From positions 1 to 64,000 of IMG/VR virus record IMGVR_UViG_3300027365_000009: a DNA stretch of 64,000 nt; one strand, written 5' to 3'. The position numbers and the translations under genes were made by a program. The notes below the pieces were generated by a model, which was not told where the DNA came from, did no database searches, and saw only the letters and a program-made list of their open reading frames with translations. How positions within the stretch are numbered: the first letter of the stretch is position 1; each line of letters opens with the position of its first letter. This document shows positions 968 to 45,210 of the stretch, piece by piece. Source of the DNA: a virus.

Positions 968-1819
968 ATGAGCATTACGTTTAAGTTTACTAACCGTAAC
1001 CTCAATGAGGACGGCATCCGGGTGTGGCGTAGCGCTACCCCCTTCGATAAAGATACCCTGCCGGGTGCCACCCACGATGAACTCGTGGCGGGTACCAAGG
1101 TGTACGAGGATACCTTTGTGGCGCGGGGCGATGAGTATTACTACCTCTTCGAGACCTACCGGGGGAATGACAGCGCCTTCAGTAACCTGATTCACGGTAA
1201 GGCGCTACCGATCCTGACCGGTCCTGGCCCTCAGACGCTCTCAGCGGGCGATCACAGGCTTGGGTTCTATGGGGAGACCCTAGTGACCGACCTGGTGGAT
1301 GGCGACGCTCTGGCGACCTCTCTGGGCCTTACAGCGGGTACGTCACAATTCAGTAGTGAACCCTGGTTGAAATTCAATCATCACGGTAAGACGCTGTTCG
1401 TCGCGAAGAAACCGTATCGTCACAGCGTAAGTTGGGATCATATCGCGGCGGTGAATGCGGTGTATGGGGGTGAGACCGACGCCCAGTTTACCTCGGACTT
1501 TAATGACACCTTCCGTGTCCGTCTGTTGACCGGTGGTGACGCGGACCCAGCCTCCAGTGCCGGTGGGGAGTGGAATGACTTAATTTACCGGGTACATGTC
1601 GATGACCCCACCGGCACAAACTGGGCCTCTTACACCGATACCGACATCGTCGTGGGGACCGGTAACGGACGCGCCAGCTGGACCCAAGAGACGGCAGCAT
1701 CGAATTCGGGGTACCGCGTCTACCGAGGGCTTTCGTCCTTGGCGGGCTTCCACACGAATACTTCGTCGAATACGATTTCGACTTATGGTTGGCGGCCTTG
1801 CCTGGAACTGGTCGTGTAA
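968..1819 (+). CDS. DGR target adhesin with variable C-terminus
   Basis: This 283-residue protein is the diversified target of the retroelement. Residues ~1-75 form a beta-rich, fibronectin-like N-terminal domain (TNRNLNEDGIRVWRSATPF, then YYYLFETYRG) in place of the Mtd-like domain of its neighbour. Residues ~80-283 are the shared binding domain (RHSVSW, VRLLTGGDADP, GGEWNDL, VGTGNGRASWTQE). The last ~35 residues are encoded by the VR and end in GWRPCLELVV. Residues that differ from the TR-encoded version are nearly all Asn in the template (N to Y, L, G, H, I, T), the classic AAY-codon logic of DGRs. The GGAGAG site at 958-963 sets the start. The product is expected at a tail-fibre tip, contacting host receptors. 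Confidence 0.9.
   Translation: MSITFKFTNRNLNEDGIRVWRSATPFDKDTLPGATHDELVAGTKVYEDTFVARGDEYYYLFETYRGNDSAFSNLIHGKALPILTGPGPQTLSAGDHRLGFYGETLVTDLVDGDALATSLGLTAGTSQFSSEPWLKFNHHGKTLFVAKKPYRHSVSWDHIAAVNAVYGGETDAQFTSDFNDTFRVRLLTGGDADPASSAGGEWNDLIYRVHVDDPTGTNWASYTDTDIVVGTGNGRASWTQETAASNSGYRVYRGLSSLAGFHTNTSSNTISTYGWRPCLELVV
1715..1802 (+). repeat. DGR variable repeat (VR)
   Basis: This 88-bp segment inside the target gene aligns without gaps to the template repeat at 2298-2385. There are 11 mismatches, all at positions that are A in the template (changed to C, T or G). All non-adenine positions are identical. The repeat ends in a GC-rich block (GGTTGGCGGCCTTGCC). Sequences beyond it differ (TGGAACTGG here, CTGACGGCTG after TR), as expected for the IMH versus IMH* difference that makes homing one-way. 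Confidence 0.95.
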
Positions 1820-1877
1820 GAATGACTGGGTAGGGTAATAATACGCAGAGACGAACCATGTATTCGTCACGACCACA

Positions 1878-1916
1878 GCGGGGTCCTTCGAGGAGCCTGT
1901 CGACGAGGGACCCCGC
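1878..1916. other. Hairpin downstream of VR
   Basis: A perfect 9-bp inverted repeat (GCGGGGTCC / GGACCCCGC) with a 21-nt loop lies 75 bp after the VR. Several DGRs carry a GC-rich hairpin or cruciform 3' of the VR that stimulates retrohoming. The position fits that role, although a T-poor terminator for the target gene is an alternative. Confidence 0.6.
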
Positions 1917-1936
1917 CCCTAAATTTATATAGAAAA

Positions 1937-2272
1937 ATGTCGAAAATAACCGAACTTTCATCACGTATGGAAACCCTGCTAGGGACGATGTTGCCTACAT
2001 TTCGTAACTACCCGCGTCACGAACATACAGGGATGTGTCAGATTATCAAACAGAAAGCCTTTGAGGGGTTATTTCAATTACACCTTGCTGAATTCACCCA
2101 CGGTGCAGCACGAAAAGACGCGTTAAAGAAAACTCAAGCCACCTTGGTGTCGTTAATGACGGTTCACCAACTGGCATATAAGGAAGGATATATAACAGAG
2201 GGTTTTCTGGAGAATGTGTGTCGCGACACAGAAATTATCCTGAGTGGTGTGGTAAGCCAATTAACCCAATAG
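1937..2272 (+). CDS. avd: DGR accessory variability determinant (Avd-like)
   Basis: This 111-residue, predicted all-helical, basic protein lies between the target gene and the template repeat, exactly where avd sits in canonical DGRs. Avd proteins are ~110-130-residue four-helix bundles that form pentamers and bind the reverse transcriptase and template RNA. Length, position and helical character (hydrophobic heptads through residues ~10-105, basic stretch near AARKDALKK) support the assignment. It is made from context more than from a strict motif. The stop codon is ~25 bp before the start of the TR alignment. No strong Shine-Dalgarno sequence is visible, so translation may be low. Confidence 0.8.
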   Translation: MSKITELSSRMETLLGTMLPTFRNYPRHEHTGMCQIIKQKAFEGLFQLHLAEFTHGAARKDALKKTQATLVSLMTVHQLAYKEGYITEGFLENVCRDTEIILSGVVSQLTQ

Positions 2273-2297
2273 TATGTAAACGGTTTGGTCTATAATG

Positions 2298-2385
2298 CAC
2301 GTCAACCGAGGGAATTCGTCCTTGACGAACTTCAACACGAATACTTCGTCGAATACGAATTCGAATAATGGTTGGCGGCCTTGCC
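2298..2385 (+). repeat. DGR template repeat (TR)
   Basis: This noncoding 88-bp template matches the VR at 1715-1802. In the VR frame it would encode many AAY Asn codons, giving the largest possible diversity when adenines are mutated without creating ochre or amber codons. Substitutions seen in the VR are CAC to CGC, AAC to TAC, AAT to CTT, ACG to GCG, AAC to GGC, AAC to CAC, AAT to ATT, AAT to ACT and AAT to TAT. The TR lies between avd and the RT gene. Confidence 0.95.
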
Positions 2386-2525
2386 CTGACGGCTGTTTAT
2401 CTGATGGTTTGGTCGCTAAGGCCGCCTTCCGCATGTTATAGTTCGTCAAGGGGGCGAAATCGTTCGTTACCTAGATAACGAGAACACACTATGACTACCC
2501 CTCCCATCACGCTGTGGGGGTAGTC
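2320..2525 (+). ncRNA. Structured TR-spacer RNA of the DGR
   Basis: The transcript from TR into the RT leader contains nested inverted repeats. CCTTGACGAAC (2320-2330, inside TR) pairs perfectly with GTTCGTCAAGG (2441-2451). GGCGGCCTT (2374-2382, the TR 3' end) pairs with AAGGCCGCC (2418-2426). A third hairpin, GACTACCCC / GGGGTAGTC, is at 2493-2501 / 2517-2525. In the Bordetella phage DGR the TR plus downstream spacer RNA folds to self-prime cDNA synthesis with Avd and RT. This spacer is of similar placement, so I infer the same role. Confidence 0.65.
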
Positions 2526-2553
2526 GCCCAATTATGCCGTAATGGGGTAACCG

Positions 2554-3588
2554 ATGTTTAACGATATCATGCACGAGGCTAACATCTCAGAAGCGTTCAA
2601 CGCGACACAACGTGGTGCGCCTAAACACAAACCCGCCGCCGTTAAGTTTAAACGACAGCAGTTTCATGAACTGGACAAGTTGGTCAGTGAACTTCATAAT
2701 GGGACCTACCGCCCGGGACCTTATGCGTCGTTTCTAGTACATGAACCAAAACAACGGGTTATCTTCTCACCGTCATATCGCGATAAAATCGTTCAACATA
2801 TGCTCAATAATGTGTTGTCACGACGGTATTATCCCTTGTTTATACGTGATTCTTACGCCTGTATCGAAGGTCGGGGTAATATCAGAGCAGTGCTCACCAT
2901 CCAACGGCAATTAAGGGCAATTCAGATAGAATACAATATCCAAGGCCACCTCGCAAAAAGTGACATCTCGAAGTTCTTTTACTCGATACCCCATGACATA
3001 CTCAAGCACATCTTGACCAAAGTAGTCACATGCCCGTTAACTCTGACATTGTTATATGAGATCATTGATTCTAGTCCGATCAACCCAGGGCTACCGTTAG
3101 GTAATTTAACCAGCCAACTATTTGCTAATATCTTTCTTAATGAACTTGACCAGTTCTGTAAGCGCCAACTGCGTATAAAACACTACGTCCGTTACGCCGA
3201 TGATATTGTAGTGACAACGACGGATAAAACTAATGCCGATATAATAAACGAGTTGATTGATGGGTTCCTTAAAGATAATTTACGTCTTACGTTACATCCC
3301 CGCAAAACCCAATCGTTGCCGGTTAAACATGGTGTTTCGACCTTAGGGTTTTTCATTACTCAAGAACGGCTTTATTTACTGGGACGACAGAAGTCACGAA
3401 TACGAAAGCTTTTGCATAAAACACCCGCACTACTGGAACAAGGACTGTCTTACCGTGTTATTGAACAACGTCTTAATAGTTGGTTGGCCTTCGCTCAACA
3501 TGCTAACCCGCAGTATTTTATTAGGGCCTTGCTCAATGATTACGATTTCCTTACCCTCGATAATTTAGGGCGGTTCCGATTAAGGTAA
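2554..3588 (+). CDS. rt: DGR reverse transcriptase
   Basis: This 344-residue reverse transcriptase performs error-prone copying of TR RNA into mutagenic cDNA. Visible motifs are the first catalytic Asp in DISKFF (D137), the DGR-type signature GLPLGNLTSQ (residues ~179-188) followed by LFANIFLNELDQF, and the active-site YADD (residues 214-217, in YVRYADDIVV). The C-terminus is a thumb-like helical domain. Length is normal for the family, with no endonuclease or other fused domain. The LG-N-TSQ block, in place of the QG motif of retroviral and group II intron enzymes, is specific for DGR RTs. It is the last gene of the element and is followed by a convergent terminator. Confidence 0.95.
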   Translation: MFNDIMHEANISEAFNATQRGAPKHKPAAVKFKRQQFHELDKLVSELHNGTYRPGPYASFLVHEPKQRVIFSPSYRDKIVQHMLNNVLSRRYYPLFIRDSYACIEGRGNIRAVLTIQRQLRAIQIEYNIQGHLAKSDISKFFYSIPHDILKHILTKVVTCPLTLTLLYEIIDSSPINPGLPLGNLTSQLFANIFLNELDQFCKRQLRIKHYVRYADDIVVTTTDKTNADIINELIDGFLKDNLRLTLHPRKTQSLPVKHGVSTLGFFITQERLYLLGRQKSRIRKLLHKTPALLEQGLSYRVIEQRLNSWLAFAQHANPQYFIRALLNDYDFLTLDNLGRFRLR

Positions 3589-8561: not shown

Positions 8562-9914
8562 ATGAATTTCGATCATTTCCCGAAAGGTTGCGGCATCCTG
8601 GAAGTAACCCATACCCCCACCGGTAACTTCTTTTACGCCGTGGCGGATTCACTCCAATATACGGCGCGTCATACATACAACGTACTGCAAATCGGCTCTC
8701 ACCACAATCCCTCATTGCAGGAACTGGTGTCTAAGACAGGTATCGACGCCGTTGAGTTTGATTTCATCAAATGCGAAGACCGTCAGGAGGCGCGGGCAAA
8801 GCGCCATGAGTTACTGATCGAACATTACACTAACCCGAAACTACTCAATGGGAGCGACTTCCCTAAAGTCCCTGGTGCGTACCGCATCATCCATCGCCCC
8901 TCAGGGAAATTCTTTGTGGGTCACTCGGTAGATGTCGTCAAACTCCACAAGCACAACATGATCATGCTTCGCGCGGGAAACCATCGCAACGAGGCATTTC
9001 AACAAGTGTTTAATGAGAGTAACGGCTCGGACGACTTTACGTTTGAGTTTATCCGAACCCAAGACGGAAAGGAAGCCCGCGAGTACGCCCAAAAGTGGTT
9101 TGACGAATACTGGGACACGGGACTGATCCTCAATAACATGAAGGTTAATAGGGTGAAACGCGAGATACCCGGTGCGTACAAACTGATCCATAAACCCACA
9201 GGCCGTTTCTACGTGGGCAGCACTAAGGATATTCCTTGGCGCATTACGTCACATTTCAACCAAATGGAAACGGGGAAACACCAAAACCGGTTTCTCCAGG
9301 AGGTATGGAATGGGGACCGCGATGAGTTTGTTGTTGAGGAGTTTCCAACTAGGGACCGGGAAGAAGCCTTCTTGCTCGAACAAAAAATGATTGATGAAAT
9401 GGGCGGTGACGAGAACTGCGTGAATATCGCCAAGAATGCTAAGTCGCCTATTAGTAGTATTTTGCTTTCTGAAGAGGTTATTGCGAAGCGTAAAGCGTCA
9501 CTAAAGAAACGCCAAGAATCTCCAGAATACCGTAAGCAGATGGGTGAGAGGATGCGGGAGATGTGGAGTGACCCCGAACGTAGAGCCAACCGTCGCGGTG
9601 CGGGGAATCCCTTTGCCAAGCAAATCTGCATTGGCCCACGTTATTTCGGTTCCGTTAAGGATGCAAGTCGGACACTCGGGGTGTCGGAGTTATTACTCCG
9701 TAATCGAGCAAATGATCAAAATAGTCCGGGCGTGTTCTTCCCTGAGAATCCATTACCGTTGGATGTACTGAAAGCCAATAACCGCGAAGTCGAAAACAAA
9801 CCAAAACTTTACCACCTATATTGCCACTTTCTAAAAGAATATTACGGCATCGAACCAGAAGGAAATGTACATCATGGCGCAGGGGATTATCGGTCGGGTG
9901 AGGGGGTATCTTAA
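8562..9914 (+). CDS. GIY-YIG homing endonuclease with three tandem GIY-YIG-like units
   Basis: This 450-residue homing endonuclease would cut an allele lacking it and spread by repair. Three successive units resemble the GIY-YIG fold: residues ~9-95 (GCGILEVTHTPTGNFFYAV), ~103-195 (PGAYRIIHRPSGKFFVG) and ~202-290 (PGAYKLIHKPTGRFYVGST). Only the third keeps the downstream Arg and Glu expected for catalysis (PWRITSHF and LLEQKMIDE). The first two look degenerate and may bind DNA or dimerise. The C-terminus has a NUMOD3-like basic helix (KRKASLKKRQESPEYRKQM) and a NUMOD1-like helix-turn-helix (SVKDASRTLGVSELLLRNR). AAGGAG precedes the start. The gene lies directly behind the RNA polymerase fragment. 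Confidence 0.85.
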   Translation: MNFDHFPKGCGILEVTHTPTGNFFYAVADSLQYTARHTYNVLQIGSHHNPSLQELVSKTGIDAVEFDFIKCEDRQEARAKRHELLIEHYTNPKLLNGSDFPKVPGAYRIIHRPSGKFFVGHSVDVVKLHKHNMIMLRAGNHRNEAFQQVFNESNGSDDFTFEFIRTQDGKEAREYAQKWFDEYWDTGLILNNMKVNRVKREIPGAYKLIHKPTGRFYVGSTKDIPWRITSHFNQMETGKHQNRFLQEVWNGDRDEFVVEEFPTRDREEAFLLEQKMIDEMGGDENCVNIAKNAKSPISSILLSEEVIAKRKASLKKRQESPEYRKQMGERMREMWSDPERRANRRGAGNPFAKQICIGPRYFGSVKDASRTLGVSELLLRNRANDQNSPGVFFPENPLPLDVLKANNREVENKPKLYHLYCHFLKEYYGIEPEGNVHHGAGDYRSGEGVS

Positions 9915-11721: not shown

Positions 11722-12531
11722 ATGCGTACACGGTTTTTACGCGGGACGACCGCGGAGAATAATGGGTTGACGCTCCCGGAAGGGGAATTGTCGATTGACT
11801 TAGAGAAAAAGGCAGTCCGCTTACATGATGGCCAAACCCTGGGTGGGTTTGAAGTGGTGGGGACTCAATCGGTAATGAGTGGAAGTCAGATAATCGCTAC
11901 TGATGGAGTTGTCGATTTTTATGGGGAGGTCCCCGACACTGAGCTTTTTACAAGGACTGAGTTATCGACTATTACAGGAATGTCTTCGGGAGTTGAGCTT
12001 AGCGATGCCGGTTTCTCTTGGCTTAAGTTTGGATTTAACGGAAAAATTTTATTTGTTGCCAGCAAAAATGTCCGCAGTAATGTGACCGTAAACGAGCTTT
12101 ACAATTTAGGTTTAGTATACGGGACTGACACAGTAGGGGCATTCCCACCGACAACCGGTGTTAACCAGAACACCTTGTTAACTAAAAATAACCTTACCTT
12201 CAAGGTTCGCCTCCTCAATGGTTCAGTCAACGACCCTAGCGGAGCTGAGCGTAACGTTAACGTGTTTACCGATGGCCCAGGTTCCGAATGGGACGAATTG
12301 TTGAAACGTGTACATTCCGATTACTCTCCTGGCGGTGACTGGCCTACATACACCAACGAATTTCTAGACATAAAACTAAACCGATACAGTTTTGTGAAAG
12401 AGACCCATACACACACCACCTATTCCCGCATAATGAGGGGCTATCACGGTTTACTCGGTATGTCGTCAAACATACCGCAATGGAGATCATCAAGCGGATG
12501 CTGGCGCCCTGTCCTCGAACTCGTTCAATAA
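11722..12531 (+). CDS. Mtd-like adhesin, third paralog
   Basis: This 269-residue protein has the same Mtd-like N-terminal domain as the gene at 84 (TRFLRGTTAENNGLTLPEGE, RLHDGQTLGGFE). It also has the same binding domain (WLKFGFNGKILFVASKN, FKVRLLNGS, GSEWDELL) and ends GCWRPVLELVQ. The last ~30 residues align in register with the VR of the DGR target but differ at many non-adenine positions, so this gene is not a product of the local TR. AGGAG lies 8 bp upstream. It is more AT-rich than the other two copies, suggesting separate acquisition or faster drift. Confidence 0.85.
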   Translation: MRTRFLRGTTAENNGLTLPEGELSIDLEKKAVRLHDGQTLGGFEVVGTQSVMSGSQIIATDGVVDFYGEVPDTELFTRTELSTITGMSSGVELSDAGFSWLKFGFNGKILFVASKNVRSNVTVNELYNLGLVYGTDTVGAFPPTTGVNQNTLLTKNNLTFKVRLLNGSVNDPSGAERNVNVFTDGPGSEWDELLKRVHSDYSPGGDWPTYTNEFLDIKLNRYSFVKETHTHTTYSRIMRGYHGLLGMSSNIPQWRSSSGCWRPVLELVQ

Positions 12532-25277: not shown

Positions 25278-25817
25278 ATGGGCATGCCCAATAAAACGAA
25301 GGTGTTTCCTCGCGGTTACAGTGGCGGTCAGCAACAAAATGACCCGACCCACAGAAACCGTGGGGGTGACCCCCGCGTCACCGACTTGTGGCGTCAGTAC
25401 ACCTCACCGAATAACCAATCTTCCGCGTGGTCGTTCCGTCGGAAAGCGATCACGGTCGCTAAGCAAATGCTGGCGGGGCGTCCCAATTGGTTTATTCAGC
25501 AGGACACCAATGAGCTGGTAAGAGAATATAACTACCAGTTTCTGATTGACACCCTGCGATTCATTGGTACTGGGAAACGGCGGATTAGCATTCACGCGTG
25601 GCCGGATCTTCTCAGTAACCATCCGGTGGCAGGTCTGAACGACGTGTCAGAACGCCATGAAATCGCCGATGTGTTTGAACAACTGAAACTGACCACGTCG
25701 ATCGAAGCCATGCTCCAGCTCTGGTGCAGTCACCCCCATGGGTTCGATGATATGGTATGTACTTTGAACCTACTGTTTGGGGATCTTCCCCTGAAAGTGG
25801 AACAAAACGCCAGCTAA
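25278..25817 (+). CDS. Hypothetical 179-residue protein
   Basis: The basic, Gly/Gln-rich N-terminus (KVFPRGYSGGQQQND) is followed by a helical body with conserved-looking aromatic residues. GAGGAGGC precedes the start. It closes the three-gene group begun at 23224. Unknown function. Confidence 0.8.
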   Translation: MGMPNKTKVFPRGYSGGQQQNDPTHRNRGGDPRVTDLWRQYTSPNNQSSAWSFRRKAITVAKQMLAGRPNWFIQQDTNELVREYNYQFLIDTLRFIGTGKRRISIHAWPDLLSNHPVAGLNDVSERHEIADVFEQLKLTTSIEAMLQLWCSHPHGFDDMVCTLNLLFGDLPLKVEQNAS

Positions 25818-25850
25818 GCGTTTTTCCTTTACCTATCGATGGAGAATGAC

Positions 25851-27245
25851 ATGTCAACCCTTCTGAAGAACTGGCTGGAACAGTCCCAAGTGAGCCTGGA
25901 AGACTACGAGATGACTGATGGCGAGCAGAAGCTCGACGTCCACGTGGCCTCTGAGCCGAGCGTCGATCAAGAACTTGCCAAAATGGAAGAGTCCAAGCTC
26001 ACCCAGGACGAAATCCAGAAAGACTGTGAGGCCATGGTTGAAGCCCAGTCTGCCATGGAAGACTACGCCGACCTGCTGAGCCACGCTCTGGAGAACGGGG
26101 GTCTGAACGATCAGGCCGCGGCCTTCATGCGCCTGGGCATGGAGCGCTATGAAGCGATGTTCGGCCTGGAAGAGCCGCTGACTCCGTCCGTAGAAGCCTT
26201 TGGTGGTAGCGCCTCTCGTCAGCACTCCACTCAGGTCTCCCTGGAGTCCATCTCCGAGACCCTGAAGAAGTCCTGGGAAGCCATCAAGCGCGCCCTGACG
26301 GCCCTGATCAACGCCGTCAAGGACGTCTATGCCAAGGCAACCAACGCCGCCGGCCGTCTGGAGAAGCGAGCTAACGCGCTGCGGGCGAAAGCTCAGCAGG
26401 CCAAAGGCAAGACCCCGAAGGAAGACAAGATCAGCATCTCCGGTGCCGGTAAGCTGTACGCCGATGGCGTGTGGAAGGGCGACGATGTATCCATGGTTGC
26501 CGGCTTCATGACCTACGGCCTGGGTAAGTTCCCGGAGATCGCCATCAAGTACGCCCAATCGGTGGCAAACACTGTGGGTCAGATCAAGCCCGAGTCGGTT
26601 TCCAAGCAGACCGCGGCGACCGTACTGAAGATGTCCGACACCATGCTCAGTGACTTCAAGGGCACCGCCTCTCCGTCTGACGATAAGCGCTTCCCTGGCG
26701 ATACCGAAGTCAAGCATTCCGAAATCCTGCCGGGTAACATGGCACTGTATCTGTCTCAGCCGGCGGTGAAGGGCGACGAGATCGCCGCCCTCAAGAAGCT
26801 GGCATCCAACCTGCGCGCCGATATGCTGGCCGTGCCGGGTGCGAAGGCCGGTGAGAAGAGCCATGAAATCACTGTGGCGACTCCTGACGTACTGGCCAAC
26901 CGTGCTGGTCAAATCGCAAACGCTGCCGGCATGATCAAGAAAGCCAGCACCAACGGCGACAAGATCAAGAAGGTTGTCGATGACCTGATGAAGGCAGGTG
27001 ATGCGCTCAAGGAGAAGGCCGATAAGGCTGAGCTCAACGACGAGCAGAAGAAGACCATCGATGCTATCCTGCGTGGTATGGTTGCCATTCAGCGCCTGCT
27101 CGGTGGTACCATCAACGGTATCATCGCGTACGGTGTGCGTACCCTGAACGCCCAGCTTGGTGTTGTAGAGCGCCAGCTTGCGACTTACAAGGTCGAGGCC
27201 ACCGCGGGCGACGAAAACCTGCCGGCGAAGAAAGACGACGAGTAA
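25851..27245 (+). CDS. Abundant inner-head-type protein with propeptide
   Basis: This 464-residue protein starts at ATG 25851 (MSTLLKNWLEQSQVS); GGAG at 25840 supports this over the ATG at 25839. Residues ~1-125 form an acidic helical propeptide-like region ending in a VSLESISE site, followed by a basic helical domain (ALTALINAVKDVYAKATNAA). It has the same layout as the protein at 28548, including an ALENGGLNDQAAAF segment matching GLENGQFSPQFAAA there, so the two are paralogs. Codon bias is extreme and close to that of the major capsid gene, which implies very high expression. Followed by a strong terminator. Confidence 0.8.
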   Translation: MSTLLKNWLEQSQVSLEDYEMTDGEQKLDVHVASEPSVDQELAKMEESKLTQDEIQKDCEAMVEAQSAMEDYADLLSHALENGGLNDQAAAFMRLGMERYEAMFGLEEPLTPSVEAFGGSASRQHSTQVSLESISETLKKSWEAIKRALTALINAVKDVYAKATNAAGRLEKRANALRAKAQQAKGKTPKEDKISISGAGKLYADGVWKGDDVSMVAGFMTYGLGKFPEIAIKYAQSVANTVGQIKPESVSKQTAATVLKMSDTMLSDFKGTASPSDDKRFPGDTEVKHSEILPGNMALYLSQPAVKGDEIAALKKLASNLRADMLAVPGAKAGEKSHEITVATPDVLANRAGQIANAAGMIKKASTNGDKIKKVVDDLMKAGDALKEKADKAELNDEQKKTIDAILRGMVAIQRLLGGTINGIIAYGVRTLNAQLGVVERQLATYKVEATAGDENLPAKKDDE

Positions 27246-27262
27246 GTCGTTATCGGTGTCAC

Positions 27263-27288
27263 GGGAGGCCCTTGGGGCCTCCCTTTGT
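27263..27288 (+). terminator. Rho-independent terminator
   Basis: The stem GGGAGGCC / GGCCTCCC (27263-27270 / 27276-27283) is followed by TTTG. It lies between the inner-head-type gene and the gene at 27301. Confidence 0.8.
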
Positions 27289-27300
27289 TGGGAGTTGCCT

Positions 27301-28485
27301 ATGCCCCCCGTCGCTGATTATTACGACGACGTCCGTGACGAACCCAAACCCATCACGGAAGAATACGATTCCGTCGCCGATGACCCCACCGTCGATCCGG
27401 AACGATTAGCAAAGCTCCTTGAACAGCCCACCGACACAGCACGTCATGTCCTACGTCTGATGGACGGAGTTGAGAGTTACCACCCTCCGCTGTTTGAGGA
27501 CATTGAAGACGGACTACTGTTACCGGGCTTTGAAGGGTTTAAAGACACGCTTCATGATCTGTGGGAACGTATCAAGCAATGGCTTGCTGCGGTACGGCGT
27601 TGGATCATGGATGACGGTCGTCAAGCGGACATTGCATTAAATGCACTGTCACTGCAGTGTGAAAACCTGAAAGTTGATACCCGAGCTAAGTTGTCAAGCC
27701 AACAGAGCGGTCAGTTTAAGATCAAGGGACGCATTACGTCACTTTCGGTGTTCTACGCACCGCCACGCGATATCGGTCAATTGATCTCGAACCTGCGGAT
27801 GATGAACCGTTTTATGGGCGATTATCTGAATCTGGTTGATCGCCAGATGTTGGGTAACGTAGGACGTGTGGCTGTACGGGTGAGCCAACTTGATCCAGCA
27901 AGGTTGTTTGCCCCGGATCTTGAAGACTTGGCGGTGGAGTTACGACGAATGGCTCCTGAGAACGCCATCACGTCACTTAATCTCCAGCCCGTGAAAGGCT
28001 CATCTCGGCGGTATAGTTCGCTGCACCTCATGGGCAATTTGAGACTGATCTACCAGCCCGGTGGAGACGCTCGGGGGATGTCCCGTGTACTGTCTCAGAC
28101 ACTGCGTTTGATGCACTCGGATATCAACCCACGTCCCATGCCACCAGAGATCACCTTCTCGAAGTTCGGACGCATCCAGAGCGATCAACTGCTTCAGTGG
28201 GTAGGGACATCGATTGACCAGTTGAAACACCATACTCAGCCTGCCATGCGGAAACGGCGGATGCGTAGCCTTGAAGAAATGGAAATGGCAGTGGATAGGT
28301 TTATCCAAAAGACAGATCAGCTGACCGATACTGACACTCAAGGTCATCGTGAACTTATCCGACAGGTCGTACAGACGGGAAGAAGCGTTAACGATTGGTT
28401 GAACAATCCGTACCATGGTATGATTGCCAATCACATACGGAGTCTTCGTGCTGCGTTGATGGTTTGTCGAATGAACGTATCCTGA
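27301..28485 (+). CDS. Inner-head-type virion protein
   Basis: This ~394-residue protein starts at the ATG after the terminator. A longer frame from 27178 would run through the preceding gene and terminator. The acidic N-terminus (YYDDVRDEPKPITEEYDSV) gives way to LLLPGFEGFKDTLHDLWERI and a basic helical body, matching the layout of its neighbours but with a less clear cleavage site (PGFEG). No other motif. Probably in the same functional group as the genes at 17914, 25851 and 28548. Confidence 0.7.
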   Translation: MPPVADYYDDVRDEPKPITEEYDSVADDPTVDPERLAKLLEQPTDTARHVLRLMDGVESYHPPLFEDIEDGLLLPGFEGFKDTLHDLWERIKQWLAAVRRWIMDDGRQADIALNALSLQCENLKVDTRAKLSSQQSGQFKIKGRITSLSVFYAPPRDIGQLISNLRMMNRFMGDYLNLVDRQMLGNVGRVAVRVSQLDPARLFAPDLEDLAVELRRMAPENAITSLNLQPVKGSSRRYSSLHLMGNLRLIYQPGGDARGMSRVLSQTLRLMHSDINPRPMPPEITFSKFGRIQSDQLLQWVGTSIDQLKHHTQPAMRKRRMRSLEEMEMAVDRFIQKTDQLTDTDTQGHRELIRQVVQTGRSVNDWLNNPYHGMIANHIRSLRAALMVCRMNVS

Positions 28486-42939: not shown

Positions 42940-45210
42940 ATGAGTAACCTCAAGAAGCTGTTTGCTGCTCGTCACGACGCGATGAGCAAAGACTTCCAGA
43001 TCGGCGAGTTCGTCGCCTCCCTGGAGTCTCACTCCGATACCGTGGGCAGCCCCCTGGCTGGCGGTAAGGAACTGGTCGGTCGTATCTCCACCGAAGCGTT
43101 CGGTGATATCGGCACCGAAGAAGCGGCCTCCTGTCAGGAGCTGTACGCTTCCATGCACGAGATGCTCGAGCGTGAAGGCTTCGAGTCTTTCAATGCCAAG
43201 CGTGGCGCCGACGCCCAGCGTGTGGGTGAGAACCAGGTCCTGTCCGCGACCCTGGCTGCCATCGCCGGTAACGACGAAGTTCGCTACAAGCGCTCCCTGC
43301 AGGGCATGCGTAGCGTCCCGCAGTCCAACAACCCGAACGTCATCGCCATCTCCCCGATGATCGACGGCCCGCACGGTCAGATGCCCGTTCTCTCCGAGAA
43401 CACCGGTCTGGAGAACTACAACGAGAAGTCCCAGCGTGACTTCCGTGTGATCTCTGTGGCCTACAACCTGGCCGCTGCTCGTCAGGACGCCTTTGGCGAA
43501 GCCCTGTATCCCACCGTGGTGGTCAACCCCACCGAAGGCGGTGTGACCCAGAACCTGACCTACGCTGCTGTCCTGAAAGACGTGTTCCACGAAGTCACCG
43601 GTGCGCTGTTCGACACCCGTGAAGTGAACATGGTCGAAGCCTTCCGTGACCCGTCCGTCCTGGAAGATGCCAGCACCAAGCTGGTGCCCGTGGTTGACGA
43701 CGCCGACAAGAACGCTCGTGTGTTCGTTGATCCCGCCGTTATCGCACCGCAGGACATCGAGCTCGAGAAAGGCGGTACCGTCAAGACCGCTCCGCTGAAG
43801 ATCGGTGAGAAGTTCGACCTTATCGGTGTGTCCAACCGTCAGCAACTGATCGCTGGCAACCTGCTGGACGTATCCGACACCATCGATCCGGCCATGCGCC
43901 TGAAGCACCTGTACGTGCGTCTGGGTGGCACCACTCCGAAAGTGGTTCGCTTCACCGTTGAGCGTATGCCCACCGCGGTGTTCCAGCCCAGCCTGACCAA
44001 CGACACCCGTCTGGCGCAGCTGAACTTCACCACCGAAGACCTGGTCGTGTCCGCCTCCACCAAGGCCATCGATGGTTCCACCAACGCGGCTATCGACGAG
44101 ATCGTCAACCGCAGCTGGACCATGCGGCTGTCCGTGGGCGTTTCCGGTTCCGTCTCCCTGTCCAAGGGTGATGCCTGGATCAACGCTACCCCGGTCGTGA
44201 TCGAAGACATCTTCGACGACGCCGGTCAGAAGCTGGACAAGTCCGCTGGCGATGCCAAGACCGTGGCCGATGCCTTCGGTGACATGACCGTTCTCGGTTA
44301 CGACCTGGATGCACGCTTCACCAACTCCAACCGTCGTGAGCGTGGCCAGCTGGTGCAGACTCGTACTCTGCAGTTCCGCTACCCGATCCCGATGCACAGC
44401 CCGATCACCCTGCCGATGTCCACCATGGACGAGTCCGGCCCGGGCGACGTGGTCAAGACCCTGACCGTGGCCACCAACATCCGCAACAGCAACAACGCGG
44501 TGACCCGTCTGCTGAACTACCTGGCTCAGCTGCGCGAAGTGGTGCGTTCTGGTTACGACCGTCCGAAATTCGGTGCTGTGGAAGGTGCCCTGTCCGCCAT
44601 GATCCGTCCGACCTACCGGTCTGGCACCCTGGATCTCGAGCAGGCCATCGACACCGTGCGCTCCAAGGATCGTTGGGAAGACGTCTGCGAGACCATCCTC
44701 AACACCATCAAGAGCCTGCTGTTCCCGGCCTACCGTGACTCCAACATCGAGGCGGCCTTCCAGACCGTCACCGGTAATGCTGATGAGCGTCCCAAGTTCA
44801 TCATCGCCACCGATAAGGAGATCGCTCACTACCTGATGCGTGTCGGCGACGACCGTACTCTGGGTTCCTACCTGAAGTACGACATCGTCAGCACCAACAA
44901 CGAGCGCTTCGACGGTAAGATCGTGATCGTGCCGACCCGTGAGAACCCGGTTGAGAACGACATCCTCAACTTCGGTCAGTTCTACTACGTGCCGACCATC
45001 ATCGCGGACCTGCCGATCAGCCGTAACGGTCAGATCTCTCGTGAGATTGCTGCCGTGCCGTTCAACCTGCACGTCAACAACATCCCGTTCGCTATCGAGA
45101 TCGACGTTGTGGGTCTGGACAAGGTGATGGGTTCTTCTCAGTACAACAGCCTCCCGGGCTTCCAGACTGAGCAAGTAGAAATCACCGACACCACCACTAC
45201 TTCTCCCTAA
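42940..45210 (+). CDS. Major capsid protein
   Basis: This 756-residue protein has the length and layout of phiKZ-type major capsid proteins: an N-terminal propeptide with an ASLES site near residue 29 and a helical acidic segment to ~115. The large mature domain (SNLKKLFAARHDAMSKDF start, YRSGTLDLEQAIDTVRSKD late) is expected to have the HK97 fold. Codon use is the most biased in the window (C-ending codons almost throughout), the mark of the most abundant protein. AAGGAA precedes the ATG. It is followed by a terminator identical to that after the inner-head paralog at 28548. Assigned from size, propeptide and codon bias. Confidence 0.85.
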   Translation: MSNLKKLFAARHDAMSKDFQIGEFVASLESHSDTVGSPLAGGKELVGRISTEAFGDIGTEEAASCQELYASMHEMLEREGFESFNAKRGADAQRVGENQVLSATLAAIAGNDEVRYKRSLQGMRSVPQSNNPNVIAISPMIDGPHGQMPVLSENTGLENYNEKSQRDFRVISVAYNLAAARQDAFGEALYPTVVVNPTEGGVTQNLTYAAVLKDVFHEVTGALFDTREVNMVEAFRDPSVLEDASTKLVPVVDDADKNARVFVDPAVIAPQDIELEKGGTVKTAPLKIGEKFDLIGVSNRQQLIAGNLLDVSDTIDPAMRLKHLYVRLGGTTPKVVRFTVERMPTAVFQPSLTNDTRLAQLNFTTEDLVVSASTKAIDGSTNAAIDEIVNRSWTMRLSVGVSGSVSLSKGDAWINATPVVIEDIFDDAGQKLDKSAGDAKTVADAFGDMTVLGYDLDARFTNSNRRERGQLVQTRTLQFRYPIPMHSPITLPMSTMDESGPGDVVKTLTVATNIRNSNNAVTRLLNYLAQLREVVRSGYDRPKFGAVEGALSAMIRPTYRSGTLDLEQAIDTVRSKDRWEDVCETILNTIKSLLFPAYRDSNIEAAFQTVTGNADERPKFIIATDKEIAHYLMRVGDDRTLGSYLKYDIVSTNNERFDGKIVIVPTRENPVENDILNFGQFYYVPTIIADLPISRNGQISREIAAVPFNLHVNNIPFAIEIDVVGLDKVMGSSQYNSLPGFQTEQVEITDTTTTSP

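Follow-up and report, generated by a model that had tools for sequence, protein, structure and literature searches.

The first 64,000 nucleotides of virus record IMGVR_UViG_3300027365_000009 (a linear record of 149,876 bp, G000 below) raise the question of whether a phage with phiKZ-like genes carries a functional diversity-generating retroelement (DGR) and, if so, which of its proteins would be rewritten. This whole stretch is referred to as the window, and coordinates given with no record name are window positions. DGRs are the best-known system of programmed hypermutation in phages, and those described reside mostly in smaller temperate phages, in crAss-like phages and in bacteria. The original prediction placed at 968–3588 a target gene with a variable repeat (VR), an Avd-like gene, a template repeat (TR) and a DGR-type reverse transcriptase (RT), in that order; both the order and the coordinates are borne out, and this locus, DGR1, is very probably a complete and intact-looking DGR of the BPP-1 type.

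The DGR1 cassette and its repeats

At the start of the window, DGR1 forms part of a small cluster of + strand genes, in which a paralogue of the target (84–956), the target itself, the Avd-like open reading frame (ORF), TR1 and RT1 follow one another. The parts of the cassette are as follows:

968–1819, + strand: target gene, ORF of 283 amino acids with VR1 at its 3' end (phrog_1062, 4e-57; virion structural PHROGs)
1715–1802, + strand: VR1, the variable repeat, 88 bp, encoding C-terminal residues of the target
1787–1802, + strand: G+C-rich 3' end of VR1, the same in TR1 and with no adenine mismatches; candidate initiation site resembling the initiation of mutagenic homing (IMH) element
1878–1916, + strand: strong hairpin downstream of the target in the DNA fold of 1781–1925, possibly with a terminator-like or post-VR role
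1937–2272, + strand: Avd-like gene, ORF of 111 amino acids, modelled as a four-helix bundle
2298–2385, + strand: TR1, the template repeat, 88 bp with 24 adenines
2386–2553, + strand: spacer of the TR RNA, predicted to be strongly structured (RNA fold, inverted repeat)
2554–3588, + strand: RT1, the DGR reverse transcriptase, 344 amino acids, with LGNLTSQ and RYADD motifs (phrog_1423, 4e-96; RVT_1, 4e-21)

TR1 and VR1 differ at 11 of their 88 bp, and every one of these differences falls on an adenine of TR1 (hypergeometric P = 8e-8), exactly the figures first claimed; in VR1 the adenines are replaced by G (four), T (four) and C (three). When the pair is trimmed by an automatic repeat finder to a core of 86 bp with 10 differences, all 10 lie at codon position 1 or 2. 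The repeat is far above chance: in a control based on the longest ungapped repeat with mismatches permitted at one base of one copy only, the length was 88 bp at DGR1, 23 bp in the 8 kb of the window that follow it and 20–23 bp in five Markov-resampled copies.

Might the repeat be an ordinary duplication that was later base-edited, lying beside an RT of group II intron or retron-like kind? Deaminase-type editing is ruled out as the source of the TR1/VR1 differences, since adenine gives way to C, G and T alike: this is the pattern of adenine-specific misincorporation, whereas deamination would yield A → G only.

The reverse transcriptase and its accessory protein

A group II affiliation for RT1 finds some encouragement in NCBIfam, where the top model is group_II_RT_mat (114 bits), although this score is far under the model's 300-bit cut-off. 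Against it, RT1 carries the DGR-type motif LGNLTSQ in place of PQG, and its best solved relative is the DGR RT of BPP-1 (PDB 8ub7_A, 6.5e-39), 26 orders of magnitude ahead of the group II and retron-type RTs that come next (about 1e-12). Moreover, in a maximum-likelihood tree of 45 rows, all DGR-type RTs are split from the group II-type RTs with support of 100/100, and RT1 falls inside the DGR clade, not outside it. Within that clade, RT1, the RT of a second cassette described below (RT2) and the RT of a Halomonas qaidamensis plasmid form one group (99/98), the branching order of which, and with it any sisterhood of RT1 and RT2 relative to the Halomonas RT, is not resolved in this tree. Scanning revealed an A-only TR/VR pair beside 38 of the 47 nearest IMG/VR relatives of RT1; in all 38, the order from upstream to downstream is VR, TR, RT. 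In a scan of genome contigs, all RTs recovered were further removed, their best segments reaching no more than 42%. Judged by its sequence, RT1 belongs to the DGR clade and stands near its TR, in keeping with the original prediction, and that it should be of another type, next to a duplicated and edited repeat, is extremely improbable.

For the Avd-like ORF, single-sequence family searches gave weak matches; a profile search, by contrast with these, matched it to solved Avd (4dwl and 8ub7). Between its model (predicted local distance difference test, pLDDT, 95.6) and the solved Avd 4dwl, the template modelling (TM) score is about 0.82 and the root-mean-square deviation 1.6 Å. In Foldseek, the uncharacterized four-helix proteins 2gsc and 2rld rank slightly above Avd, so that the fold alone is not decisive; the ORF at 1937–2272 is assigned as Avd because of its position between target and TR together with the profile match, and the accessory protein predicted for DGR1 is, on these grounds, present.

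The phage and its overlapping contig

The phiKZ-like gene set that had been ascribed to this DNA is indeed there: the window encodes proteins of phiKZ type, including the major head protein (phrog_3231, 5e-233), together with a beta-type subunit of a multisubunit RNA polymerase (RNAP; phrog_2962, 1.6e-137), a DnaB-like helicase and internal head proteins. A second record, IMGVR_UViG_3300009194_000005 (G001, 116.5 kb; window position = 70879 minus G001 coordinate), is collinear with G000:1–70878 (about 71 kb), reaches 45.6 kb further left, and is 100% identical to G000 in the parts compared (11.6 kb and 0.9 kb, at both ends of the collinear stretch). It encodes a chimallin homologue with 44% identity over 568 residues to the nuclear shell protein gp053 of PhiPA3, which points to a phage of the nucleus-forming type. 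With head protein, RNAP and chimallin, the features that characterize the Chimalliviridae, the phage is, on its gene content, phiKZ-like and of the nucleus-forming type.

At the very edge of G000, positions 1–36 of the window comprise AGGGCCTC, flanked by two T runs; the sister contig reads through them, and the edge is therefore probably an assembly break at a homopolymer.

A second cassette and remote variable repeats

Beyond the original prediction, the overlapping contig indicates that the phage very probably has another DGR besides DGR1. This second cassette, DGR2, is likewise complete, lies about 31 kb to the left of the window and has the gene order of DGR1:

G001:103135–102212: target 2, 307 amino acids, adjoining DGR2, with a VR at its 3' end
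G001:102315–102230: VR of DGR2, 86 bp
G001:102200–101730: Avd2, between target 2 and TR2
G001:101686–101601: TR2, 86 bp
G001:101441–100296: RT2, 381 amino acids

TR2 and its VR differ at 16 positions, all 16 of them at A (P = 8e-12) and all 16 at codon position 1 or 2, and the counterpart of the candidate IMH-like 3' end is near-identical (GGGTGGCGGCCTGCT). Between the two cassettes, identity is 40% for the RTs, 42% for the targets and 24% for the Avds, which argues against a recent duplication. Close relatives of RT2 were not found: the sister contig G001 was the sole match in the search with RT2.

The RNA of TR1 and its spacer is predicted to fold strongly (z −3.4): GGCCGCC at 2420–2426 in the spacer pairs with GGCGGCC at 2374–2380, at the end of TR1, and spacer positions 2434–2451 pair with TR1 positions 2320–2337. 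The corresponding RNA of DGR2 folds more strongly still (z −7.2), and the GGCGGCC/GGCCGCC pairing recurs there. The DGR RNA of BPP-1 is structured, and the TR1 and TR2 RNAs resemble it by their predicted folds; Rfam gave no supported match.

Remote VRs were located by scanning with both TR1 and TR2, two of them on a third record, IMGVR_UViG_3300009194_000027 (G029, 36.5 kb):

G029:1617–1702: remote TR1-type VR, 12 of 14 differences at TR1 adenines (P = 6e-7)
G000:70675–70760: remote TR2-type VR, 12 of 14 differences at TR2 adenines (P = 1e-6)
G029:36351–36436: remote TR2-type VR, 12 of 14 differences at TR2 adenines (P = 1e-6)
G000:97216–97301: decayed TR1-type VR remnant, 9 A and 13 non-A differences over the full 86 bp, the enrichment not being significant (P = 0.07)

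VR-bearing genes of one virion-protein family thus number five, one adjacent and one remote for TR1, and one adjacent and two remote for TR2; of the 22 columns at which the TR2-type VRs vary, 20 are A columns (Fisher, 1e-13). A match to the TR1 pattern in contig L141 lies in an unrelated coding region and was discarded as chance, as were matches to the TR2 pattern in L311, L312, L314 and L315. Beyond the window, at G000:97199–97498, a truncated target-gene fragment with an open frame of about 99 amino acids lies on the minus strand amid + strand genes, and is a candidate fossil VR or silent cassette.

Could DGR1 be real, and DGR2 and the remote VRs come from a different, co-occurring phage through chimeric assembly? 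It is indeed at target genes that contigs are interrupted or collapsed (G000 at 70.66–71.5 kb, and G029 at either end), and the same metagenome yields two further phiKZ-like contigs. However, both DGRs stand on the single contig G001, which matches G000 without a difference where compared, and the gene order through G001 tracks that of a syntenic phiKZ-like relative (G023, 231.3 kb) without a break. G029, in turn, fits exactly the G023 interval that G000 lacks at 70.66–71.5 kb, a gap at which both records hold pieces of target genes, and the combined contigs come to 232 kb. A chimera is, in our view, distinctly unlikely; we read G000 as collapsed at this point, by assembly or by recombination between repeated genes, and infer that G000, G001 and G029 represent one phage of roughly 232 kb, the case being strong for G001 and good for G029. 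Across G000:70663–71541, two VR-bearing target genes are joined, seemingly skipping a 36.5-kb segment.

Proposed mechanism and activity

In the mechanism that we favour, the RNA of TR1 and its spacer would be bound by Avd and RT1; RT1 would copy the TR RNA, making random errors where this template has adenine, and the resulting cDNA would replace the VR in the adjacent virion-protein gene and, in trans, in at least one remote paralogue. DGR2, with Avd2, TR2 and RT2, would do likewise for one adjacent and two remote genes. Likely, a phage population would arise whose virions bear a set of proteins of one family, each diversified on its own, that probably serve host recognition. In nucleus-forming phages, transcription takes place inside the phage nucleus. 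Translation takes place outside it, and the DNA is held inside, according to a review in which the word retroelement is absent (PMC12908238); RT and Avd would thus need to be imported, or an RNA–protein complex would have to re-enter. A chimallin phage with two DGRs that supply five targets or more would accordingly raise a testable cell-biological question, namely, how RT and Avd gain access to nuclear DNA.

Alternatively, the DGR may have worked recently and now be silent, with its parts intact yet no longer expressed or homing. The decayed remnant at G000:97216–97301, sitting in a truncated frame, would fit with this, as would relatives that carry VR-type tails without an RT, and the single VR sequence common to both assemblies. 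Set against these are the open frames of target, Avd and RT1, the catalytic YADD that RT1 was predicted to have, and the complete lack of non-A differences in both cis TR/VR pairs, where silencing would let them accumulate; additionally, mutual differences among the TR2 VRs keep almost wholly to A columns, as noted above. We therefore regard silencing as unlikely.

Several observations nonetheless weigh against the reading of DGR1 and DGR2 as active elements of one phage that remodel a binding domain. The sole independent copy of DGR1, on G001, has a VR identical to that of the window, so that its present activity is something we infer. Moreover, it is overlap and synteny that tie G001 and G029 to the phage of the window, and not a single assembled molecule. 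In DGRs, the target domain is expected to have a C-type-lectin or Ig fold; here, the model of the target is of low confidence across the VR (pLDDT about 30), and a structure search found no solved relative of the target; this weak model gave an N-terminal fibronectin-III-like match only, which is not significant.

The target family and its relatives

Homologues of the target occur in phiKZ-like jumbo phages, where the family is annotated as virion structural, and variation in the target is limited to roughly its last 35 residues; because of these two features, the cassettes are presumed, on the model of BPP-1, to diversify a virion protein and so change phage binding. In phiKZ-like phages, at least some members of this multi-copy virion-protein family may accordingly constitute a recognition repertoire. 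Compared loosely, the target's paralogues in phiKZ-like isolates such as PhiPA3 and 201phi2-1 diverge over their length. Homologous targets are also found in the DGRs of the Halomonas plasmid and of contigs L007–L011, which suggests that targets of this type accompany this DGR lineage in elements that differ widely. The VR-bearing loci outside the phage are as follows:

NZ_CP080628.1, about 25638–28420: DGR on a plasmid of the cultured halophile Halomonas qaidamensis XH36, apparently complete (target, four-helix Avd, TR and RT)
IMGVR_UViG_3300037502_002993 (G006), 115199–115499, 137055–137355, 151373–151673, 172349–172554 and 43874–44059: target tails with VR-type variation
Salicola phage SCTP-2 (MF360958.1), 66690–66775, 345650–345735 and 400697–400782: VR-like tails with near-identical downstream sequence

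The Halomonas plasmid RT is the closest to RT1 among cultured organisms (44.7%), and its cassette has a 97-bp TR/VR pair with 14 differences, A-only. G006, a phiKZ-like record of 220.6 kb that may be incomplete, keeps the window's gene pair (48% and 52%) with Avd adjoining. Its five target genes have 3' ends that are nearly the same, and the variable columns of the four copies that align without gaps coincide with TR adenines (20 versus 4, P = 9e-13). RT and TR are absent from this 220.6-kb record. SCTP-2, a cultured phage of 440 kb, has three paralogous genes with VR-like 3' ends, in which 16 variable positions match TR adenines and 7 do not (P = 3e-7). RT searches, the DGR-RT profile and the TR pattern found no RT, Avd or TR in its genome, and no IMG/VR contig matched its tail pattern. 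The head-protein and target searches led to 27 other records, PhiPA3 among them and several being fragments, and these yielded no RT either; the DGR-RT profile, run on 18 of these records, agreed. SCTP-2 thus offers a cultured phage for the study of VR-like tails that lack an RT.

A more far-reaching proposal, which we put forward tentatively and consider rather doubtful, is that of a clade of nucleus-forming jumbo phages with distributed DGRs: two autonomous cassettes with separate templates would jointly diversify a virion family in cis and in trans, and the VR-bearing targets kept by RT-less relatives (SCTP-2, possibly G006) would be rewritten by an RT that a co-infecting phage, a plasmid or the host supplies in trans.

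Comparison with known systems

The DGR of Bordetella phage BPP-1/BIP-1, the Mtd tropism-switching cassette, shares with DGR1 and DGR2 the order of target, Avd, TR and RT, the A-only TR/VR differences, homologous RT and Avd, and an identical G+C-rich 3' end of VR and TR. It differs in residing in a 42.6-kb phage, as opposed to two cassettes and five VRs in a phiKZ-like phage of about 232 kb, and the BIP-1 RT is only about 31% identical to RT1; a lectin fold like that of Mtd is no more than a possibility for the DGR1 target. The Halomonas plasmid is alike in RT clade, Avd, A-only TR/VR and homologous target, but is 45.9 kb in size, with one cassette and no phiKZ-like genes in the stretch read. 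The phiKZ-like phages, such as PhiPA3, share relatives of the head protein, RNAP, helicase and chimallin and the multi-copy target family, and SCTP-2 the same target family with its three VR-like tails; unlike the window's phage, neither PhiPA3 nor SCTP-2 yielded an RT.

The original prediction held that no well-studied DGR was known in such phages, and none in a phiKZ-like or nucleus-forming phage was found in the open-access literature, the scope of this search. Staphylococcus jumbo phages (e.g. UFV_DC4) have an RT, as here, but are reported to lack DGR-defining regions (PMC10638138), and a survey of 224 jumbo phages found no lectin (FGS) domains of the kind that DGRs diversify (PMC7824862). 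Two DGRs within one bacterium are known from Bacteroides (PMC3521204). The present contigs may already stand, uncommented, in the DGR catalogue of Roux et al. (PMC8144416). Each cassette is a canonical DGR with ordinary chemistry; to our knowledge, what is new is the setting, the doubling and the target array.

Neighbouring features

Two further members of the target family, and an ORF of another kind, lie in the window:

84–956, + strand: paralogue of the target, 290 amino acids (phrog_1062, 1.2e-48), 45% identical to the target over its C-terminal part
11722–12531, + strand: further paralogue, 269 amino acids, with no TR-like VR
8562–9914: ORF of 450 amino acids

The paralogue at 84–956 has no match to TR1 or TR2 in the TR scan, and so is not itself a DGR target; it gives a weak, sub-threshold match to Mtd_N. 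The ORF at 8562–9914 follows directly after an RNAP-subunit gene and, by eye only, resembles a repeated homing endonuclease of the GIY-YIG type.

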